The translations under genes were made by a program, and so were the position numbers. The notes under the pieces were generated by a model. It saw only the letters and a program-made list of their open reading frames with translations, was not told the DNA's origin and ran no database searches. From Streptomyces hyderabadensis (GTDB taxonomy: Bacteria > Actinomycetota > Actinomycetes > Streptomycetales > Streptomycetaceae), in NCBI RefSeq assembly GCF_020404845.1, contig NZ_JAIOJZ010000036.1, positions 1 to 64,000 of the forward strand: a DNA stretch of 64,000 nucleotides, in the 5' to 3' direction. Positions 45,542-54,263 of the stretch are shown here, piece by piece (the stretch's first letter is position 1; each line of letters opens with the position of its first letter).

Positions 45542-47611
45542 TCAGCCGACGGGCTCGGCCACGACGAGCTGGAACCGCTCGAAGGCCAGCTTCACGGTGT
45601 TGTGCCGGGCGTCGGCAGTCCCGAGCGAGCGGCCCTCGAAGGGGTCGGTCAGGCGGTACCTGCCGTGGCCCAGACCACGCAGCTCGACCGTCCCGTCCCA
45701 CCGCTCGGCGTAGAAGGCGTAGTGCAGCACCGCTCCCTTGGCCACCACATGGGCCTCGGGCTTGTCGAAACCGATGTCGTACAGCTCGCCCCGGTACTCG
45801 CCGGTGGTCAGCATGTTCTCCTCGTACAGGTCCAGCCACCGGCGCCAGAGAACCTCTCTTTCCGGCGTGAGCACGATCGTCTCGTCCGGGCCGGCGGGGT
45901 AGGTGAACTTCGTCGACAGGACCGCCCCCACGCCGTAAGCCGAGGCGAAGTCGTCGCCGCCGTCGCTCAGTTCGACGTGGTCGCCGGAGTAGCTGCTGCC
46001 CCGGCCCATCAGCGCCTTCATCGTCTTGCCCTTCGTCCGCACCTGGTAGGACGAGAGCGGGTCCGAGCTGGGGTACTGGTCGACGTAGGGCAGGTTGTGG
46101 AAGGCGAAGGCGGTGCCGCAGGGGCACAGCTCGACCACGGCGTCGCGGTTCGCCTCGTGGGCGGCCTCGTACACCGCCTTCCAGAACCGCGCGAGCCCCT
46201 CGGTCGACTCTTCGGGGCGGGCATGCCCGTGTGCCGGGTTGTAGCAGGGGGCGACGGCGTTGAGGTGCTGCCCGTCGATCTTGAGCCCTTCGTAACCCCA
46301 GTCGCCGATGAACTCCTTCACCTGGGCGACGAAGTAGTCCACCGTGGGCCGGTACGCGGGGCACAGCGTCCAGGCGTCCCACCAGCTCACCCGCTGCTTG
46401 TTGCCCTCGCGGTCCAGCAGGAGCATGTCGGGGCGCTCCTCGTACAGCCTGCTCCCCGGGTCCGCCGCCAGCGGGGCCCACCACAGGCGCGGCCGCAGTC
46501 CCGCGTCCCGGATCCGCCGGGTGAAGGCCCGCATGTCCGCCGCGCCCCTGGGGAACTTCCGCGGGTCGAGCTCCCAGTCGCCCTCGTTGGTCTGCCAGCC
46601 GTCGTCGAGGACCGCCCACTTCAGGCCGACCTCCCGCACCTTGGGGAGTGTTGCGACCACCTCATCGACGGTGAAGTCGCGCTCGTACCCCCAGGCGCAC
46701 CACATGGGCTCCAGGGCCGACGCGGGTGTCTCGGGGGCACGCTGGCCTACGTCACCCATGTAGTCGCGGTAGCGCTGGAGCGGCACGAAGTGGTCGCCCG
46801 GCAGGGCGGTCAGGAACGTGGTGTCGGTGGTCAGGCGCCGGCCCGGCCTCAGCGTGACGGGGCTGTCCCCCTCGACGGCGATACCTGCTCCGCGGGCCGT
46901 CCGGCGAACCGGCAGGCGCAGCATCCTCGCCACGGGTTCGACATGCCCGACGGAGAGACCGGCGCCCGGCCGCCACACGGATGCCAGGGGGGTGCCGCCG
47001 CCGTAGTCGGAGGCGTCCATCCCCAGCGAGTTCTCCTGGACGAACCCGTCCGTCATCGGCTGCACCCAGTCGCGGCGGTCCTCGTACGTCGTACCCGAGA
47101 AGGTGAAGAAGCCGCCGGGAACCTCAAGGAGTTCATGGGCCCCGCTGCGCCACCCGGTGACCGCGAGCGGGCTGCCGGTCCCGTTGGTGTAGGTCACCTT
47201 CATCACGATCATCCCGGTCAGGCGCCGGTAGGAGGTCAGCTCCACCGTCTTGCGAACGCCGGACGCGGACCTGCCCCAGACGGTCACCCGCACACCCGCG
47301 CCATGCCGGGAATGCCTGGTCCTGCGGGTCTGGTGACCGCCGTAGGCGAACTCGTCGATCACCTCGTCGCCCAGGAGCAGCGCCTCACCGGCGTCGAAGC
47401 GCGTGACGGCCTCGCCGTTCAACGCCACCCGGCTGCGCAGCCGGTCGTCGAACTCCAGGGTGATGGAGGTGTCGCCGACCCCGACGAGGTCGGGTTCGCG
47501 GTGCGGTGCGGCGGCCGCCGGTGCGGCGCCCGCTGCCACCGTGGGCAAGGCGGCCAGGCCGGCACCCCCCAGCGCCACCTTCAGTACGGTTCGCCGGTTC
47601 ACATCCGTCAT
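45542..47611 (-). CDS. Exported alpha-galactosidase-like glycoside hydrolase (GH36/clan GH-D)
   Basis: 689 residues from ATG 47611, GAGAGAG upstream. Twin-arginine signal NRRTVLKVALGG with cleavage near residue 35. An N-terminal beta-sandwich (40-290) precedes a TIM barrel: WAVLDDGWQ (332-340), nucleophile candidate Asp446 in LKIDG, acid/base candidate Asp517 in YPSSDPLSSYQVR, and a C-terminal beta domain from about 605. This layout is that of melibiase-type enzymes releasing galactose or GalNAc from alpha-linked ends. Placement beside an aga-like cluster favours GalNAc or galactosamine release. Folded export via Tat is expected. Confidence 0.85.
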   Translation of the reverse strand: MTDVNRRTVLKVALGGAGLAALPTVAAGAAPAAAAPHREPDLVGVGDTSITLEFDDRLRSRVALNGEAVTRFDAGEALLLGDEVIDEFAYGGHQTRRTRHSRHGAGVRVTVWGRSASGVRKTVELTSYRRLTGMIVMKVTYTNGTGSPLAVTGWRSGAHELLEVPGGFFTFSGTTYEDRRDWVQPMTDGFVQENSLGMDASDYGGGTPLASVWRPGAGLSVGHVEPVARMLRLPVRRTARGAGIAVEGDSPVTLRPGRRLTTDTTFLTALPGDHFVPLQRYRDYMGDVGQRAPETPASALEPMWCAWGYERDFTVDEVVATLPKVREVGLKWAVLDDGWQTNEGDWELDPRKFPRGAADMRAFTRRIRDAGLRPRLWWAPLAADPGSRLYEERPDMLLLDREGNKQRVSWWDAWTLCPAYRPTVDYFVAQVKEFIGDWGYEGLKIDGQHLNAVAPCYNPAHGHARPEESTEGLARFWKAVYEAAHEANRDAVVELCPCGTAFAFHNLPYVDQYPSSDPLSSYQVRTKGKTMKALMGRGSSYSGDHVELSDGGDDFASAYGVGAVLSTKFTYPAGPDETIVLTPEREVLWRRWLDLYEENMLTTGEYRGELYDIGFDKPEAHVVAKGAVLHYAFYAERWDGTVELRGLGHGRYRLTDPFEGRSLGTADARHNTVKLAFERFQLVVAEPVG

Positions 47612-47852
47612 GTCGGTCTCTCTCTCGGCGCGGGGTCTGGTACAGGGTGGACTGGTTCGAGAACGTAAGTGGTCTTTGATTGGCCTGTCAATGGTCCAAG
47701 AGGCCGCCGCGGCTCGGGAGTTCACCCCCCGTACCAGGAGGACCAGGCGGGGAGCAGTGGGATCGGATGCCTGCGCGGGGCGATCGGACCGGTATCCGCA
47801 TGGGCGGTCGAACCGGTATCTGTACGGGCGGCCGAACCGGTATGCTTCTGGT
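47612..47852. promoter_or_regulatory. Divergent control region of the hydrolase and GntR genes
   Basis: Three copies of ACCGGTAT at 47788, 47812 and 47836 are exactly 24 bp apart (direct repeats, two and a bit helical turns). A fourth, inverted-type copy TCTGGTAT lies at 47847-47854, and its reverse complement ATACCAGA recurs at 48746 before the gatZ-like gene. Nearer the hydrolase an AGTGGTCT (47668-47675) equals one half of a dre. TATGCT at 47841-47846 is 6 nt before the GntR ATG. Confidence 0.6.
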
Positions 47853-48641
47853 ATGACCGAAGCGAGTACGCCGATGCCCAGGGGCCTCTTCGCCGACGAC
47901 GCCCTCCCCCTGTACGAGCGCACGGCCGCGCGGCTCCTCGACGATCTGCGCGCCGCCGCCGCCCGCCCCGGCGACCGGCTGCCCTCCGAGCGTGCCCTGG
48001 TCACCCGCTACGCCGTTTCGCGCGTGACCCTGCGGGCCGCCCTCGCCCAGCTGGAGGCGCGGGGCATCGTGCGGCCGTCGTCGTCGCGCGGATGGTTCGT
48101 CGCCGAGCCCGGCCTGTTCCCGGACGCGGAGCCGGCGCCCGCCTCGGCCGTTCCCCAGGTCCAGGGGTTCGCCGACTACGCCGAGGCCAACGGCCTGACG
48201 ACGGCCAGCAAGGTGCTCTCGGCCACCGTCCGTCCGGCCACGGTGGCGGAGGCGGAGCAGCTGCGCATGGCCCCGGGCGCCGATCTCTTCGACCTCCACC
48301 GGCTGCGCTTCCTGGACGGCCTGCTGGTCGTGCTGGAGCACAACCGGCTCCCGCTGTCGGCCTGCCCGGCCCTGGCCGAAGCCGACTTCAACACCGCCTC
48401 GCTCTACGCCACCCTGCGCGCCGCCGACCCGCCGCAACTGCCCCGGGTCGCCGACTACTCGGTCGAGGCCCGCCACCCGACGGCGCGGGAGATCGAGCTG
48501 TTCGAGATCGGCGCCACCATGCCGATGCTCGTCGCCACCCAGCTGACCTCGAACCAGGACGCCCGCCCGATCGAACTGACCGTGCAGGTCTACCGGGGGG
48601 ACCGGTACCGGTTCCGGGCCTCCATCACCAACCAGACCTGA
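47853..48641 (+). CDS. GntR-family regulator with UTRA domain (HutC type)
   Basis: 262 residues. Winged helix at about 20-85 (LPLYERTAARLLDDLRAAAA, VSRVTLRAALAQLEARGIVR), then a UTRA ligand domain (SAVPQVQGFADYAEANGLTT, LFDLHRLRFLDGLLVVLEHN). The UTRA fold binds sugar phosphates in DasR, NagR and AgaR-like proteins, so a phosphorylated amino sugar is the expected inducer. Divergent from the hydrolase and upstream of the catabolic genes. The ATG follows a TATGCT box by 6 nt, so the mRNA is probably leaderless. Confidence 0.9.
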   Translation: MTEASTPMPRGLFADDALPLYERTAARLLDDLRAAAARPGDRLPSERALVTRYAVSRVTLRAALAQLEARGIVRPSSSRGWFVAEPGLFPDAEPAPASAVPQVQGFADYAEANGLTTASKVLSATVRPATVAEAEQLRMAPGADLFDLHRLRFLDGLLVVLEHNRLPLSACPALAEADFNTASLYATLRAADPPQLPRVADYSVEARHPTAREIELFEIGATMPMLVATQLTSNQDARPIELTVQVYRGDRYRFRASITNQT

Positions 48642-48866
48642 CCCGAACGGTCGCGTGCAAACCCTGCCCGAGCCGGGCGTCGGAGTGGCCGACGCCCGGC
48701 TCGTCGCCATTGCGCGCACTGGTCACCATGAGACGACAGTGAGAGATACCAGAAGCAGACCAAGAAAGACCTATTGACGGCCGAAAATAAGACCAGTAAC
48801 GTTCCGCATGAGCTTCGGGCCATCGCGGCAAACGGGCTCAAACCGCACTTCAGTGAGGGGTTGGCG
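48642..48866 (+). promoter_or_regulatory. Promoter region of the gatZ-like operon
   Basis: 225 nt. ATACCAGA (48746-48753) is the reverse complement of TCTGGTAT found before the GntR gene. Further on AGACCA motifs recur (48756, 48786 region). No gene; the open frame from TTG 48774 into the gatZ-like gene is not used because GAGGGG precedes the ATG at 48867. Confidence 0.5.
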
Positions 48867-50198
48867 ATGCAGAGCCCGTTGGACGAGGTCGTCCGGAGCC
48901 AGAAGGCCGGACGGCCACAGGGCATCACCTCCGTGTGCTCCGCCCATCCGCTGGTCATCGAAGCGGCCGTACTGCAGGCACGGGAGACCGGTGGCCCCCT
49001 GCTGGTGGAGGCGACCTCGAACCAGGTCGACCAGTACGGCGGATACACGGGCATGCGGCCCGGCGACTTCCGCGACCTGGTGCACGGCATCGCGACGGCC
49101 TGTGGTCTGCCGCTGGACCGGGTGATCCTCGGCGGCGACCATCTCGGACCGAACCGGTGGCAGTCCCTGCCGCCCGAGGAGGCGATGGAGCAGGCCGAAG
49201 CCCTGGTCGCGGCCTACGCGGGGGCGGGCTTCACCAAGATCCACCTGGACTGCAGCTTCGCCTGCGCAGGCGACCCCGTACCGCTGACCGACGACGTGGT
49301 CGCCGAACGCGCCGCACGGCTGATCCGGGTGGCCGAGGACACGGTGGGCCCCGAGCGGGCGGACCGGATCCGGTATGTGATCGGTACCGAGGTGCCCACG
49401 CCCGGCGGCGCGCACGAGACGCTCGGCGCCCTCGTGCCCACCACGCCCTCGGCCGCGCGCACGACGCTGGAGCAGCATCGCAAGGCGTTCGCCCGGCACG
49501 GCATCGACGGTGTCTGGCCACGCGTCATGGCCCTGGTGGTGCAGCCGGCCGTGGAGTTCGACCACCTGCGCGTCGTCGACTACCGGCGGGAGCCGGCCCA
49601 GGAGCTGCGCAAGGTCCTCGACGACGAGCCCACCATGGTCTACGAGGCCCACTCGACCGACTACCAGACCGCCGAGGCGCTCACCGCCCTGGTCGAGGAC
49701 CACTGGGCGGTCCTCAAGGTGGGGCCCGGGCTGACCTTCGCCCTGCGCGAGGCACTGTTCGCCCTCGCCGCGATCGAGGACGAGCTGGTGCCGCCCGGTG
49801 AGCGGTCGCGGCTTCCCGAGGTCGTCGAGCGGCGGATGCTCGCCGAACCCGCCAAGTGGGAGGGCTACTACCCCGGCGGTGCGGACGAGCAGCGCCTCGC
49901 ACGCCGCTACAGCTACAGCGACCGGATGCGCTACTACTGGCCCGACCCCGAGATCGAAGCGGCCCAGGCCAGGCTGTTGGCCAACCTCTCGGCCGCGGCC
50001 GTCCCGCTGCCGCTGCTCAGCGCCCATCTGCCGCTCCAGTACGCCCGCGTCCGCCGCGGTGAGCTGGCCGCCCGCCCGCGCGACCTGGCCGTGGACCACG
50101 TCCGCGACGTGCTGCGCGACTACGCCCGCGCCGCCGACCCCGGCGGCACCCCGGAGCAGAACCAGAACCAGAAGCCGAGCCAGAAGGAGTACGTGTGA
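48867..50198 (+). CDS. Tagatose-1,6-bisphosphate aldolase non-catalytic subunit (GatZ/KbaZ-like)
   Basis: 443 residues from ATG 48867 (MQSPLDEVVRSQKAG). Family signatures include GITSVCSAHPLVIEAA, LVEATSNQVDQYGGYTGM and ILGGDHLGPNRWQSLPPEEA, plus VIGTEVPTPGGAHE. In enteric bacteria KbaZ/GatZ stabilises and activates the class II aldolase KbaY/GatY. Here it starts the operon, coupled by GTGTGA to the SIS-domain gene, while its partner aldolase is the last gene. The Gln/Asn-rich C-terminal tail (QNQNQKPSQKE) is unusual. Confidence 0.88.
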   Translation: MQSPLDEVVRSQKAGRPQGITSVCSAHPLVIEAAVLQARETGGPLLVEATSNQVDQYGGYTGMRPGDFRDLVHGIATACGLPLDRVILGGDHLGPNRWQSLPPEEAMEQAEALVAAYAGAGFTKIHLDCSFACAGDPVPLTDDVVAERAARLIRVAEDTVGPERADRIRYVIGTEVPTPGGAHETLGALVPTTPSAARTTLEQHRKAFARHGIDGVWPRVMALVVQPAVEFDHLRVVDYRREPAQELRKVLDDEPTMVYEAHSTDYQTAEALTALVEDHWAVLKVGPGLTFALREALFALAAIEDELVPPGERSRLPEVVERRMLAEPAKWEGYYPGGADEQRLARRYSYSDRMRYYWPDPEIEAAQARLLANLSAAAVPLPLLSAHLPLQYARVRRGELAARPRDLAVDHVRDVLRDYARAADPGGTPEQNQNQKPSQKEYV

Positions 50199-51355
50199 CC
50201 ACGCCCTCCGGCACGCTGCCCCTCGACGACAGCGCTGTCCACACCGTCCGCGAGATCGCCCAGCAGCCCGCCCTGTGGCGGGAGGTCGAGCAGATCGTCG
50301 CCGCCTGCCGGGACTCGCTGGACGCGTTCCTCAGTCCCCTCCTGGCCCGCGGCGACCTGCGCGTGGTCCTCACCGGCGCCGGCACCTCCGCGTTCGCCGG
50401 CCAGGTGCTCGCGCCGGCCCTGTCCCGGCGCCTGGGACGGCGCGTCGACGCGGTCGCCACCACGGACCTCGTCGCCGATCCCCGCGGTTGCCTCGCCGAG
50501 GACCTGCCCACGCTGCTGGTCTCCTTCGCGCGGTCGGGCGACAGCCCCGAGTCCGTGGCCGCCACCGCCCTGGCCGACCAGGTCCTCTCCGAGGCGCACC
50601 ACCTCGTGATCACCTGCAACGAGCAGGGCCGCCTGGCGCGCGAACACGCCGAGCGGCCCCGGTCCCAGGTGCTGCTGATGCCCGCCGCGTCCAACGACCG
50701 CGGCTTCGCCATGACGTCGAGCTTCACCTGCATGACGCTCGCGGCGCTGCTCGCGCTGGGCGCAGACGCCTACGACGGGATCGCCGAACGCCTGGCCCGG
50801 GCGGCGGAGTCGGTCATCGAGGAGGGCGCCGCCGACCGCACCGCCGGCGCCCTGGTGGACCGCGCGCCCGAGCGCATCGTCTTCCTGGGCAGCGGCCCGC
50901 TGAAGGGCCTCGCCGAGGAGTCGGCGCTGAAGGTGCTGGAACTCACCGGCGGGACGCTCATGGCGGTCGCGGAATCCTCGCTGGGATTCCGGCACGGTCC
51001 CAAGGCGGTGCTCAACGAGCGTTCGGTCGCGGTGGTGTACGTGTCGAACGACCCCTACACCCGCCGGTACGACCACGACATCGTCGCGGAGCTGCGCGGA
51101 AACCTGCCCGACGGCAGTGTCTTCGCGGTCTCGGCACAGACCGGTGCCGCGGCGGAGGACGCGGCCGACGCCTGGCCCCTGCCGGGCCTCGACGACGTCG
51201 ACGACGCCGCCCTGGCCCTGCCCGCGGTGGTGTACGCCCAGCTCATCGCCCTGCGCGCCTCCCGGGCGCGGGGCCTGCGGCCCGACAACCCGTTCCCCTC
51301 GGGTGAGGTCAACCGCGTGGTGCAGGGCGTGATCCTGCACTCCCTGAACAACTGA
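50195..51355 (+). CDS. SIS-domain sugar-phosphate isomerase/deaminase (AgaS-like)
   Basis: 386 residues from GTG 50195, AAGGAG upstream. Two SIS domains: LTGAGTSAFAGQ and SFARSGDSPESVA in the first, FLGSGPLKGLAEESALKVLE in the second, then GFRHGPKAVL with the catalytic Glu/His region. AgaS is the galactosamine-6-phosphate deaminase/isomerase of the aga pathway, giving tagatose-6-phosphate. The N-terminal TVREIAQQPALWREV matches AgaS/GlmS-like starts. Substrate identity is inferred from the cluster. Confidence 0.85.
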   Translation: MTTPSGTLPLDDSAVHTVREIAQQPALWREVEQIVAACRDSLDAFLSPLLARGDLRVVLTGAGTSAFAGQVLAPALSRRLGRRVDAVATTDLVADPRGCLAEDLPTLLVSFARSGDSPESVAATALADQVLSEAHHLVITCNEQGRLAREHAERPRSQVLLMPAASNDRGFAMTSSFTCMTLAALLALGADAYDGIAERLARAAESVIEEGAADRTAGALVDRAPERIVFLGSGPLKGLAEESALKVLELTGGTLMAVAESSLGFRHGPKAVLNERSVAVVYVSNDPYTRRYDHDIVAELRGNLPDGSVFAVSAQTGAAAEDAADAWPLPGLDDVDDAALALPAVVYAQLIALRASRARGLRPDNPFPSGEVNRVVQGVILHSLNN

Positions 51356-51404
51356 TCGAAGGCGGCGACGGCGCGCACCGAGGGCGCCGGACGGAGGTAC
51401 AACG

Positions 51405-52397
51405 ATGTTCCTGGGTGTCGACGGCGGCGGTACGAAAACCGCCTTCTGCCTGGTCGACCGGTCCGGGCACGTGGTGTCGCGAGCACAGGCGGCGAGTTCG
51501 TACTACTTCTCGCACGGCATCGAGCTGGTCGAGCGGGTGCTGAGGGAAGGCGTCGACGCCGTCTGCGCGGCGGCCGGAGCGGCCCCGGCCGACATCGAGT
51601 ACGCCTTCTTCGGCCTGCCCGGTTACGGGGAGGCGGCCCACGACCTGCCCGTCCTCGACGCGACCCCGCGAGCGGTGCTCGGCCACGACCGCTACGCCTG
51701 CGACAACGACATGGTCTGCGGCTGGGCGGGCTCCCTGGGCGCGGTCGACGGCGTCAACGTCATCAGCGGCACCGGTTCGATGACGTACGGCGAACGGCTG
51801 GGCCGGGGCGTGCGGGTCGGCGGCTGGAGCGAGACGTTCGGCGACGAGGGATCGGCGTACTGGATCGCGGTCCGCGGCCTCAACGCCTTCTCGCGGATGA
51901 GCGACGGACGGCTCGCCGAAGGCCCCCTGGCCGGGGTGTTCCGCGGCCGGCTCGCCCTCGGGTCCGACCTCGACGTGATCGACGTCGTCCACAACCGGTG
52001 GCAGGGCGACCGGGGGCGGATCGCCTCGCTCAGCCGCGCGGTGGCCGAGGCGGCCGCGGCGGGCGACGCGACCGCGGCGTCGATCCTCGCGGCGGCCGGC
52101 CGCGAACTCGCCCTGCTCGTGGACGTCACCCGCGAACGCCTGGGGTTCGGCCCGGACGAGACCGTGCCCGTCTCCTACTCCGGCGGCACCTTCGGCGCCG
52201 CCCCCGTCCTGGAGGCGTTCACCTCCGGGCTGAAGAGCCGCTTCACCGGCTACGAGTTGCGGCACCCCCTGTACGAACCCGTCGTGGGCGCCGCCCTGTA
52301 CGCGGCGAAACTCGCCGGAACCCCGCTCGACCGGCCGGCGCTCGACGCGCTGCGCGGGACCTCCGGGGCCCCTGCCTCAGGAGAGGACGAACAATGA
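51405..52397 (+). CDS. BadF/BadG-family amino-sugar kinase
   Basis: 330 residues; GGAGG before the ATG. ASKHA ATPase motifs: DGGGTKTAF (phosphate 1), VISGTGSMTYG (phosphate 2), GDEGSAYWI and SYSGGTFGAAPV (adenosine). This family includes N-acetylglucosamine and N-acetylgalactosamine kinases. In this cluster it would phosphorylate free GalNAc or galactosamine in the cytosol, replacing PTS phosphorylation. Followed by the EamA gene with a 4-nt overlap. Confidence 0.85.
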   Translation: MFLGVDGGGTKTAFCLVDRSGHVVSRAQAASSYYFSHGIELVERVLREGVDAVCAAAGAAPADIEYAFFGLPGYGEAAHDLPVLDATPRAVLGHDRYACDNDMVCGWAGSLGAVDGVNVISGTGSMTYGERLGRGVRVGGWSETFGDEGSAYWIAVRGLNAFSRMSDGRLAEGPLAGVFRGRLALGSDLDVIDVVHNRWQGDRGRIASLSRAVAEAAAAGDATAASILAAAGRELALLVDVTRERLGFGPDETVPVSYSGGTFGAAPVLEAFTSGLKSRFTGYELRHPLYEPVVGAALYAAKLAGTPLDRPALDALRGTSGAPASGEDEQ

Positions 52398-53332
52398 AGA
52401 ACGGCACGAGAAGCTGGATCCTGTACGCGTCGCTGCTGGTCCTGTTCTGGGGTGTGTGGGGCGCCTTCTCCAGCGAGCCGAACAGCAGGTACGGCTACCC
52501 CAACGAGATGATCTACGTCATCTGGGCCTTCACGATGATCATCCCCGCGTACTTCGCGATGCGCGGCAACACGTTCGACCGCAGGCCGGTCGCCGCGATG
52601 TACGGACTGATCGCCGGACTGACCGGAGCCGGCGGACAACTGCTGCTGTTCCAGGCGCTCTCCGACGGTCCGGCGTACCTGATCTTCCCGCTGGTGTCGC
52701 TCTCCCCGGTGATCACCGTGCTCATGGCGACGGTGCTGCTGCGCGAGCGGATCACCCGGCTCGCGGTCGTCGGTGTGGTCGCGGCGCTGGTGGCGATCGT
52801 GCTGCTCAGCATTCCCAGCGGCTCGGACGACTCGGACTCGCACGGCCCGTGGCTGGTGATGGCCGTCCTGGTCTGCGTCGCCTGGGGCGTGCAGGCGTTC
52901 TGCATGCGCAAGGCCGCACTCGTCGGCGTCAACGACGCGACGACCTTCGGGTGGATGACCATCAGCGGACTGCTGCTGGTGCCGGTGGCGTTCGCGCTCA
53001 TGGGCGGCCTCCCGGACGGGGCTCCCTGGCAGGCGCCGGCGCTCACCGCGGTGACCCAGATCCTCAACGCGGTCGGCGCGCTGTTCCTGGTCATGGCGTT
53101 CAGCCGGGGCAAGGCCACGGTGGTCGCCCCCGTCACCAACGCGCTCGCCCCGGTCCTGACCATCGTGCTGTCCCTGGCGGTGTACCAGACGCTGCCCAGC
53201 GTGTGGGGCACCCTGGGCATCGTGCTGGCCCTCGCGGGCTCGACCCTGATGGTCTACAGCGACGAGAAGAGCGGCGAGACGTCCGTGGCACCGGGGGCCG
53301 CGGAGAGCGACGTGAGTCCGGTCGGCCGGTAG
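52394..53332 (+). CDS. EamA/DMT-family transporter
   Basis: 312 residues and ten hydrophobic helices (two five-helix EamA repeats): WILYASLLVLFWGVWGAF, AGLTGAGGQLLLFQALSDG, VSLSPVITVLMATVLLRERI in the first; VAWGVQAFCMRKAALVGVND, NALAPVLTIVLSLAVYQTLP in the second. The FQALSDGPAYLIFPLVSL arrangement resembles sugar-uptake DMT members (GlcU-like). Its ATG overlaps the kinase stop, which suggests delivery of free sugar to that kinase. The substrate is inferred only. Confidence 0.82.
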   Translation: MKNGTRSWILYASLLVLFWGVWGAFSSEPNSRYGYPNEMIYVIWAFTMIIPAYFAMRGNTFDRRPVAAMYGLIAGLTGAGGQLLLFQALSDGPAYLIFPLVSLSPVITVLMATVLLRERITRLAVVGVVAALVAIVLLSIPSGSDDSDSHGPWLVMAVLVCVAWGVQAFCMRKAALVGVNDATTFGWMTISGLLLVPVAFALMGGLPDGAPWQAPALTAVTQILNAVGALFLVMAFSRGKATVVAPVTNALAPVLTIVLSLAVYQTLPSVWGTLGIVLALAGSTLMVYSDEKSGETSVAPGAAESDVSPVGR

Positions 53333-53414
53333 TCCCGGCCGCTCGTACCGGCCAAGCCCCGAACCGAACGACCGTCGAAGCAACCGCAACACGAAAGCGA
53401 GGGGAAACACCCCC

Positions 53415-54263
53415 ATGCCCCTGGTTCCCACGCAGGACCTCGTCCAGGCGGCGGCCGCCGCCGGCCGGGCCGTCGCGGCGTTCAACGTGATCACGCTGGA
53501 GCACGCCGAGGCGATCACCTCGGGCGCGGCGGCCGCGGGCGCCCCGGTGATCCTGCAGATCAGCGAGAACGCCGTGCGGTTCCACGGCGGCCGCGTCGAG
53601 CCGATCGCCCGGGCCGCGGCCGAGGTCGGCAAGGCCAGTGACGTCGACGTCGCACTGCACCTGGACCACGTGACGGACATGCGGCTGCTGCGCACGGCGG
53701 CCGACGCCGGGTTCTCCTCCGCGATGTTCGACGCCGGGGCGCAGCCCTACGCCGAGAATCTGGCCGCCACCCGTGCCGCCGCGCAGTGGGCCCACGGCGC
53801 GGGCCTGTGGCTGGAGGCCGAACTCGGCTACGTGGGCGGCAAACCCGACGCGCCCGCGAGCGCCCACGCGGCCGGGGTGCGCACCGACCCGGAGGAGGCG
53901 GCGCGATATGTGGCGGACACCGGCGTGGACGCGCTGGCCGTCGCCGTCGGCAGCAGTCACGCGATGACCGAACGCTCCGCGTCCCTGGACCACGCGCTGA
54001 TCGGCCGACTGCGGGAGGCCGTGCCCGTTCCCCTGGTCCTGCACGGTTCGTCGGGCGTCGGCGACGACGAACTGCGGCGAGCCGTCCGGGCCGGCATCGT
54101 GAAGATCAACGTCGGTACCGCCCTCAACATCGCCTTCACGGGCGCGGTCCGCGAGACACTGGCGGAGCGCCCCGACCTCACCGACCCCCGCCCCTACGTC
54201 GCCCGGGGCCGGGAAGCGATGGCGGAGACGGTACGCGCCCTGCTCGCAGTGGTGGGCGGCTGA
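53415..54263 (+). CDS. Class II bisphosphate aldolase, tagatose type (GatY/KbaY-like)
   Basis: 282 residues; GAGGGG about 11 nt upstream. Zinc ligands and catalysis: LHLDHVTD (Asp/His), EAELGYVGG (Glu), and LVLHGSSGVGDDE (His), with substrate loop KINVGTALN. It cleaves tagatose-1,6-bisphosphate (or fructose-1,6-bisphosphate) to DHAP and glyceraldehyde-3-phosphate. Co-occurrence with a GatZ-like subunit supports the tagatose assignment. No tagatose-6-phosphate kinase (PfkB) is present in the cluster, so that step must be supplied elsewhere. Confidence 0.87.
   Translation: MPLVPTQDLVQAAAAAGRAVAAFNVITLEHAEAITSGAAAAGAPVILQISENAVRFHGGRVEPIARAAAEVGKASDVDVALHLDHVTDMRLLRTAADAGFSSAMFDAGAQPYAENLAATRAAAQWAHGAGLWLEAELGYVGGKPDAPASAHAAGVRTDPEEAARYVADTGVDALAVAVGSSHAMTERSASLDHALIGRLREAVPVPLVLHGSSGVGDDELRRAVRAGIVKINVGTALNIAFTGAVRETLAERPDLTDPRPYVARGREAMAETVRALLAVVGG

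Follow-up and report, generated by a model that had tools for sequence, protein, structure and literature searches.

How can a gene cluster centred on AgaS serve as a complete sugar pathway when it holds no phosphotransferase system (PTS), no deacetylase and no tagatose-6-phosphate kinase? The question is raised by a locus at positions 45542-54263 of a 64-kb stretch, here called the window, of contig NZ_JAIOJZ010000036.1 from Streptomyces hyderabadensis (assembly GCF_020404845.1; 8.18 Mb, 169 contigs). An earlier reading of the bare letters, the sequence-only reading, had named the genes and concluded that two activities, a deacetylase and a tagatose-6-phosphate kinase, must be borrowed from elsewhere in the genome, or else that the substrate is galactosamine (GalN) rather than N-acetylgalactosamine (GalNAc). 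We consider it likely that the locus is a dedicated GalN catabolic cluster, one that would need no PTS, no deacetylase and no dedicated tagatose-6-phosphate kinase. Its named genes (GatZ, AgaS, BadF-type kinase, EamA, GatY, the hydrolase and the UTRA regulator) were all confirmed with Pfam and NCBIfam models and lie as follows.

45542-47611, minus strand: HYD, a Tat-type GH36 hydrolase and probable alpha-galactosaminidase resembling FpGalNase (Pfam Melibiase/GH36-type; nearest structures 8x1b and 9awt)
47853-48641, plus strand: REG, a GntR+UTRA regulator of the type that travels with HYD (Pfam/NCBIfam; nearest structure DasR)
48867-50198, plus strand: GatZ/KbaZ family protein, probable tagatose-6-phosphate 4-epimerase (TIGR02810, 671 bits against a cut-off of 569)
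50195-51355, plus strand: AgaS family protein, predicted galactosamine-6-phosphate deaminase/isomerase (TIGR02815, 577 bits against a cut-off of 529)
51405-52397, plus strand: BadF-type sugar kinase, probable galactosamine 6-kinase (BcrAD_BadFG PF01869, 242 vs 31.5 bits)
52394-53332, plus strand: EamA (DMT) membrane transporter, probable galactosamine importer (PF00892, 107.7 vs 28.2 bits, two stretches)
53415-54263, plus strand: GatY/Fba-like class II ketose-bisphosphate aldolase (PF01116)

In the route that we propose, the secreted hydrolase would act on a polymer such as fungal galactosaminogalactan or bacterial Pel and release its terminal alpha-linked GalN. EamA would import the free sugar, the BadF-type kinase would convert it to GalN-6-phosphate, and AgaS, judging by its family, would deaminate and isomerise this product to tagatose-6-phosphate. 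GatZ would then epimerise tagatose-6-phosphate at C4 to fructose-6-phosphate, which would enter glycolysis, while GatY may serve a bisphosphate branch. The GntR/UTRA regulator would act on the repeat ATACCRG-N4-ATACCRG at its own promoter and at that of the operon. Read in this manner, a seemingly incomplete pathway becomes complete and testable. More tentatively, and with somewhat less than even confidence, we extend the proposal to a complete deacetylase-free and PTS-free scavenging of GalN in Actinobacteria, made up of galactosaminidases, an EamA importer, a 6-kinase, AgaS and GatZ as the physiological epimerase, which would bypass GalNAc and tagatose bisphosphate. A literature search limited to open-licence papers found no publication on this cluster and no bacterial galactosamine 6-kinase.

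Gene content and the likely substrate

The genes from GatZ to GatY (48867-54263) form a single operon, in which GatZ and AgaS overlap by 4 bp (GTGA), as do the kinase and EamA (ATGA). Translation of GatZ likely starts at the ATG at 48867 rather than at the TTG at 48774, because the latter coincides with TTGACG, the -35 box of a promoter that is conserved. Seven other Streptomycetaceae genomes have the same order GatZ-AgaS-kinase-EamA-GatY and, beside GatZ, a divergent regulator, which in L059 is cut by the contig end. For a broader comparison, the best 80 of 342 named actinobacterial loci from the kinase alignment were used, with up to 10 kb fetched on each side and counts taken as they are at contig ends. 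A gene was scored as present if at least half of the query was covered, above a family-specific identity floor and inside the fetched stretch. AgaS adjoins the kinase in 77 of these 80 loci, the exceptions being L163 (at a contig start), L168 and L180, and all cluster counts given below refer to these 77. Since the order is kept in seven relatives and AgaS stands so regularly beside the kinase, the gene set is no chance grouping. The clusters contain EamA (69), GatY (63), GatZ (55), HYD (24), GH4 (18), GH114 (8) and PfkB (7). By kinase, the nearest named locus belongs to Streptomyces tendae (L135), with 91-97% identity over the ten proteins compared.

Within a sample of 200 Streptomycetaceae genomes, the kinase was found at 65% identity or above in nine and AgaS at E 1e-50 in eight. 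These eight, the genome of the window included, are exactly those with the kinase in the cluster; the ninth kinase lies outside such a cluster, directly behind a GH114 gene. The kinase-locus and family samples overlap, because several loci (L129, L144, L145, L147, L161 and L180, among others) recur as genomes of the family samples.

That the cluster holds no PTS, deacetylase or tagatose-6-phosphate kinase, as the sequence-only reading had stated, was borne out by a profile scan and by direct queries. The E. coli PTS components IIB, IIC and IID (AgaV, AgaC, AgaD), AgaI and the NagA of this genome gave zero matches in the 64-kb window at E 1e-6, and neither PfkB nor a tagatose-6-phosphate kinase of the LacC type was found in the window cluster. 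The AgaV, AgaC and AgaD queries had no match in the 80 kinase loci either. A second sample, of 396 actinobacterial genomes, was built on AgaS, which occurs at E 1e-40 or better in 25 of them, and the surroundings of all 25 carriers were read. They split in two. Five clusters, the window counted, combine an AgaS of at least 51% identity with the kinase and EamA and are free of both PTS and NagA-like genes; the other 20 (AgaS 39-45% identical) carry PTS IIB, IIC and IID plus a NagA-like gene, and kinase and EamA are missing from all of them. The NagA-like genes of these 20 clusters are 29-36% identical to the NagA of our genome, a figure that expresses similarity and is not a family test. Such a split in the sampled Actinobacteria, with the deacetylase found in the PTS clusters and absent from those with kinase and EamA, would give a simple annotation rule.

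Published reconstructions take agaS without agaA as specific for GalN, as stated in PMC5583593. The deacetylase/PTS split, the type of the hydrolase and this published rule together make free galactosamine the likeliest substrate, which favours the second option of the sequence-only reading, and a deacetylase would be unnecessary because the substrate would be galactosamine. Alternatively, the substrate could be GalNAc, or GalNAc together with GalN, in which case the kinase would form GalNAc-6-phosphate and the NagA of the genome would deacetylate it ahead of AgaS. The genome does have one NagA above the cut-off, in another cluster, where its neighbours are a PfkB and a kinase of ROK-like appearance (by eye), and a GH109-type gene lies near its GH114 operon. 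According to a review, NagA can substitute for AgaA in E. coli, and Shewanella is reported to handle GalNAc by permease and kinase (PMC2996990). However, a NagA-like gene is present in 20 of 20 PTS clusters, in none of the five kinase/EamA clusters and in one of the 80 kinase loci, the last count being made with no identity floor (the PTS-cluster homologues being only 29-36% identical), and the hydrolases nearby are of the galactosaminidase type. We therefore regard GalNAc as a distinctly unlikely substrate.

Turning to the proteins that would act on galactosamine, the kinase passes the PF01869 superfamily model and fails the NagK_SO3507 equivalog (63 vs 370 bits), and its nearest solved relative is a MurNAc/GlcNAc kinase (2.2e-23). 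Among 17 motif positions checked, 16 are invariant over the 80 loci and one is T or S. We predict a probable galactosamine 6-kinase.

Compared with known systems, the cluster would be a variant of the AgaS (Aga/Gam) pathway working like its galactosamine branch. AgaS, GatZ and GatY are homologous to AgaS, KbaZ and KbaY of the E. coli aga/kba system for GalNAc and GalN (45, 57 and 38% identity, respectively), but that system has PTS genes and agaA, whereas the window has the kinase and EamA and no deacetylase. In E. coli K-12, agaA and agaW are pseudogenes. From the canonical Aga/Gam cluster, AgaS is found in the window, whereas PTS IIB/IIC/IID, the deacetylase and the tagatose-6-phosphate kinase are not. 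A permease and a cytosolic kinase in place of a PTS are not new, since this arrangement is known from the AgaP-AgaK-AgaAII-AgaS set of Shewanella (PMC2996990). The Shewanella permease, as described there, belongs to the GGP family and its set includes the deacetylase AgaAII, in contrast to EamA and the missing deacetylase of the window. The absence of agaA, as a mark of GalN, is shared with the GalN-only pathways of Firmicutes and Proteobacteria, yet the account in PMC5583593 names GamPTS as their transporter, whereas the window has EamA and a BadF-type kinase. Release outside the cell, a permease and kinase replacing the PTS and AgaS in mid-pathway, as drawn in the sequence-only reading, are supported by the analysis.

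Proposed uptake by EamA and exit through GatZ

Eight of the 77 clusters have no EamA or one covered to less than half: L195 (at a contig end), L153 and L167 (partial), L143 (absent), L173, L175, L178 and L184. Upstream of the last four clusters, which belong to two genera (Plantibacter, and Cryobacterium with two loci), are ABC permease genes, and the EamA losses of these four amount to one event or two on a quick tree of the kinase loci, on which all presence and absence changes were counted. Because EamA partners the kinase in 69 of the 77 clusters and ABC genes stand where it is missing in these two genera, we favour uptake by EamA, which likely imports galactosamine. The earlier proposal of EamA as the uptake system thus finds qualified support, and EamA does not always accompany the kinase.

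The reverse direction of transport also has points in its favour. Among NCBIfam models, those nearest to EamA describe an amino-acid exporter and a carboxylate/amino-acid/amine carrier, and it scores far below the cut-off of each. Sixteen of the 77 clusters have both EamA and, nearby, an ABC binding protein, and a GH114-ABC-GH4 operon lies on contig C117 of the genome. EamA might thus export GalN or another amine, with uptake left to an ABC system elsewhere, such as that operon. On the other hand, the EamA gene overlaps the kinase gene, and it is missing where ABC genes adjoin the cluster in the Plantibacter and two Cryobacterium loci; we consider export unlikely. A search of solved structures with EamA gave no match. 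Should EamA import galactosamine, this sugar would be assigned as substrate both to this branch of BadF-type kinases and to this branch of EamA transporters.

At the other end of the route, a tagatose-6-phosphate kinase would be unnecessary because GatZ, if it is an epimerase like its E. coli relatives, gives fructose-6-phosphate. Named as aldolase chaperones, GatZ and KbaZ of E. coli are reported to convert fructose-6-phosphate to tagatose-6-phosphate, and GatZ also to run in reverse (PMC11907403). The window protein passes the TIGR02810 model and does not reach the thresholds of the models specific for KbaZ and for GatZ. It shares with the E. coli proteins the family and all seven active-site residues of E. 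coli GatZ (C20, E44, D87, H88, E171, H257 and K279), which are kept wherever covered among relatives (53 or 54 of 54); unlike them, it sits with AgaS and a kinase and without a PTS. It is a probable tagatose-6-phosphate 4-epimerase by these residues, and the cluster, if so, would provide a natural pathway for the epimerase activity known from E. coli. A genome-wide search returned the one NagA and 12 PfkB matches, so that borrowing is possible, although nothing requires it. It is probably a mistake to infer that the cluster has to borrow two activities: a deacetylase is unneeded for galactosamine, and GatZ may replace the tagatose-6-phosphate kinase.

GatZ and PfkB never occur in one cluster (GatZ alone in 55, PfkB alone in 7, neither in 15), and among 24 clusters fetched around AgaS, 4 have GatZ, 17 have PfkB and none has both. 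We rejected an interpretation of this exclusion as many independent events. On the kinase-locus tree the changes number 2 for PfkB, 11 for GatZ, 8 for GatY, 5 for EamA and 4 for HYD, and since the two PfkB changes fall in one clade, PfkB represents one replacement there and not seven. Six of the 77 clusters have GatZ but not GatY (L170, one of the six, is on a short contig), and 14 have GatY but not GatZ. Moreover, 22 genomes have no GatZ in the cluster, and 21 of them show none elsewhere at E 1e-20, the remaining one having a remnant. Because the two genes occur apart and GatZ is so rarely found elsewhere, GatZ would thus behave as a separable enzyme.

GatY, in turn, fails the tagatose-bisphosphate equivalog TIGR01858 (219 vs 443.55) and passes only the broad cbbA model (231.8 vs 215.6); its five zinc and catalytic positions are kept in 63 of 63 loci. 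It accompanies GatZ in 49 of the 55 GatZ clusters, as would be expected if, for the same substrate, a borrowed kinase, or GatZ itself, phosphorylated tagatose-6-phosphate and a GatY-GatZ aldolase cut the bisphosphate. PfkB proteins are at hand in the genome, and a review recalls that AgaZ was once proposed as a tagatose-6-phosphate kinase. The separate occurrence of GatZ and GatY and the 21 genomes without any GatZ argue against this scheme, as does the published epimerase activity of E. coli GatZ and KbaZ (PMC11907403), and we think it rather unlikely.

Three loci (L125, L158 and L167) have GatZ remnants of 15-22% of its length beside AgaS, which would reflect repeated GatZ loss with GatY kept. 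AgaS and the kinase stand without GatZ, PfkB and GatY in L146, L148, L173, L176 (near a contig end), L178, L184, L198 and L200.

The Tat-type hydrolase and its possible polymer

The longest open reading frame of HYD starts at 48004, and a start at 47611 gives the Tat-like beginning MTDVNRRTVLK, in which we recognised by eye what we take to be a twin-arginine (Tat) motif. The start at 48004 is very likely spurious and 47611 probably the true one. The nearest solved structures are 8x1b, named an alpha-galactosidase (E 1e-72), and FpGalNase from Flavonifractor plautii, 9awt (1.8e-72), followed by 6lcj (1.5e-16); the printed sequences of 8x1b and 9awt are almost identical. Among solved relatives whose activity is known, FpGalNase is the closest. 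HYD is homologous to FpGalNase over ~595 residues and keeps eight of its nine active-site residues (W317, D346, D347, W387, K461, D463, C513 and D532), as do 24 of 24 relatives. FpGalNase together with a deacetylase strips the blood-group A sugar, according to PMC11762096, which names Y464, C513 and D532 as distinguishing it from alpha-galactosidases. The same source reports it nearly inactive after loss of D463, C513 or D532, and lowered in activity by a change of Tyr464 to Ala. HYD retains C513 and D532 of the distinguishing trio. Unlike FpGalNase, it has a Gly for Tyr464, carries a Tat-type signal and has no deacetylase beside it.

HYD is accordingly a probable alpha-galactosaminidase of the FpGalNase kind, as predicted from these residues, and the earlier label of an alpha-galactosidase-like hydrolase stands as to the GH36/Melibiase family and the Tat-type signal, while among GH36 enzymes with solved structures the protein is nearer to the alpha-galactosaminidase than to the other alpha-galactosidases. 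A true alpha-galactosidase, in a cluster for galactitol, tagatose or galactose, would agree with the Pfam label Melibiase, with the name of one of the two best structures and with the GH4 neighbours of 18 clusters, which resemble a GH4 of an alpha-galactosidase model. Yet AgaS, of an amino-sugar phosphate deaminase family, is present in 77 of the 80 loci, other alpha-galactosidases match HYD far more weakly, and no dehydrogenase was found among ten genes scanned around the cluster. We hold this possibility to be highly improbable.

HYD is rare: a search of 396 genomes of the phylum found it in two, once here and once as a fragment at a contig edge, and a search of 394 genomes of the family found it in 7. 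It adjoins the kinase operon in all seven of the latter, the window and six others, one of which (the copy matching L137) is without GatZ, and it adjoins the operon in 24 of the 77 clusters. The view that HYD is an unrelated neighbour peculiar to the window, to which its absence from the first seven relatives had pointed, was overturned by the named loci and the family search.

A further candidate source of galactosamine is GH114, a polygalactosaminidase family that includes alpha-1,4-galactosaminidases (PMC12054363). Its presence in all eight operon genomes was rejected as a marker, PF03537 being found in 164 of 200 family genomes; because it is so common there, the presence of GH114 in this genome tells little, and nearness to the cluster (8 of 77) was used instead. 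At least one of HYD, GH114 and GH4 is present in 43 of the 77 clusters. If the proposed route is true, fungal galactosaminogalactan or bacterial Pel would be food, and the clusters offer a genomic route to new alpha-galactosaminidases, few of which are in the literature and which have uses on galactosamine-rich biofilm polymers and in blood-group conversion.

Several observations weigh against the galactosamine route as we propose it. The Gly in place of Tyr464 is common to HYD of the window and 24 of 24 relatives, and 34 of the 77 clusters have none of HYD, GH114 and GH4 within reach. GatY, although superfluous for a pure epimerase route, is mostly kept beside GatZ, and of the 15 clusters with neither GatZ nor PfkB, eight are also without GatY. 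EamA is missing from L143, where no ABC genes were found, and partly covered in L153. The NagA elsewhere in the genome could also serve GalNAc.

On contig C117 of the same genome (L100:5238-10650), GH114, a sugar-binding protein, two ABC permeases (by eye) and GH4 lie in a row; the GH4 is that of the alpha-galactosidase model, and a GntR/UTRA regulator and the GH109-type gene are nearby. This operon is likely an oligosaccharide-uptake arm for galactosamine polymers. In Streptomyces sp. H39-S7, a lone kinase (L061:10198-11190, on the same contig as L180) follows a GH114 gene of the same strand at a distance of ~200 bp, and no match to AgaS at E 1e-50 was found in that genome. One Streptomyces has a GH78-like protein (rhamnosidase fold) with a Tat-like start adjoining GatY (L060:8781-11426).

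Predicted operators and promoters of the cluster

The promoters of relatives share an 11-bp direct repeat, ATACCRG-N4-ATACCRG, and the following elements were located in the window.

47837-47854, minus strand: operator ATACCAG-N4-ATACCGG over the regulator start, the only match with 0 mismatches in the genome (motif kept in relatives)
47789-47843, plus strand: three CCGGTAT half-sites at 24-bp spacing (47789, 47813, 47837) in the regulator promoter
48669-48703, plus strand: strong hairpin between regulator and operon, a possible terminator with no T run (15-bp stem in a 65-base fold, -38.7 kcal/mol)
48746-48763, plus strand: operator of the GatZ operon, ATACCAG-N4-AGACCAA, 2 mismatches (relatives' promoters, genome scan)
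48774-48802, plus strand: operon promoter with -35 TTGACG, 17 bp and -10 TAACGT (similar boxes in seven relatives)

An operator with at most two mismatches, within 300 bp upstream of a GatY, GatZ or AgaS start, was found near the operon start in 45 of 54 loci with the regulator vs none of 23 without it. Five of the 54 are the genomes from which the motif was derived, and the counts are identical whether GatY is admitted as first gene or only GatZ and AgaS. Off these promoters, the operator occurs 8 times in ~1.0 Mb (54 loci) and 4 times in 0.46 Mb (23 loci). This co-occurrence supports a regulator that would bind the direct repeat at its own and the operon promoter. In the genome, a scan at up to two mismatches gave 23 sites vs 7 in a reversed control; 22 of the sites have two mismatches, among them the one at the GatZ promoter, which only its place and conservation set apart. 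A genome-wide regulon was set aside in view of these 23 vs 7 sites and the single perfect match at the regulator, although further targets may exist.

DasR is known for its role in Streptomyces amino-sugar control. It is the nearest solved relative of REG (1.4e-19) and likewise a GntR/UTRA protein; the operator of REG, in contrast, is an 11-bp direct repeat with a detectable regulon that is local. The regulator of the window is of the HYD-associated type, with 79-96% identity in HYD loci vs 54-64% for the other type, and in 15 of the 24 HYD loci an operator stands no more than 300 bp from the start of HYD, with some of these operators also close to the regulator. It looks as if an older cluster had received HYD and this regulator together, as a cassette. 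L162 and L200 point the same way, since each has two neighbouring regulators of the same family, the HYD-associated one and the one native to the operon.

The triple CCGGTAT array of the window was not seen in the eight relatives compared. Upstream of HYD (window 47612-47720), HYD-bearing loci have a conserved block, GAGAACGTAAGTGGT...TGTCAA, which is degenerate in the window. Read in the opposite direction, this block resembles, by eye, a -35/-10 promoter that has operator-like half-sites.

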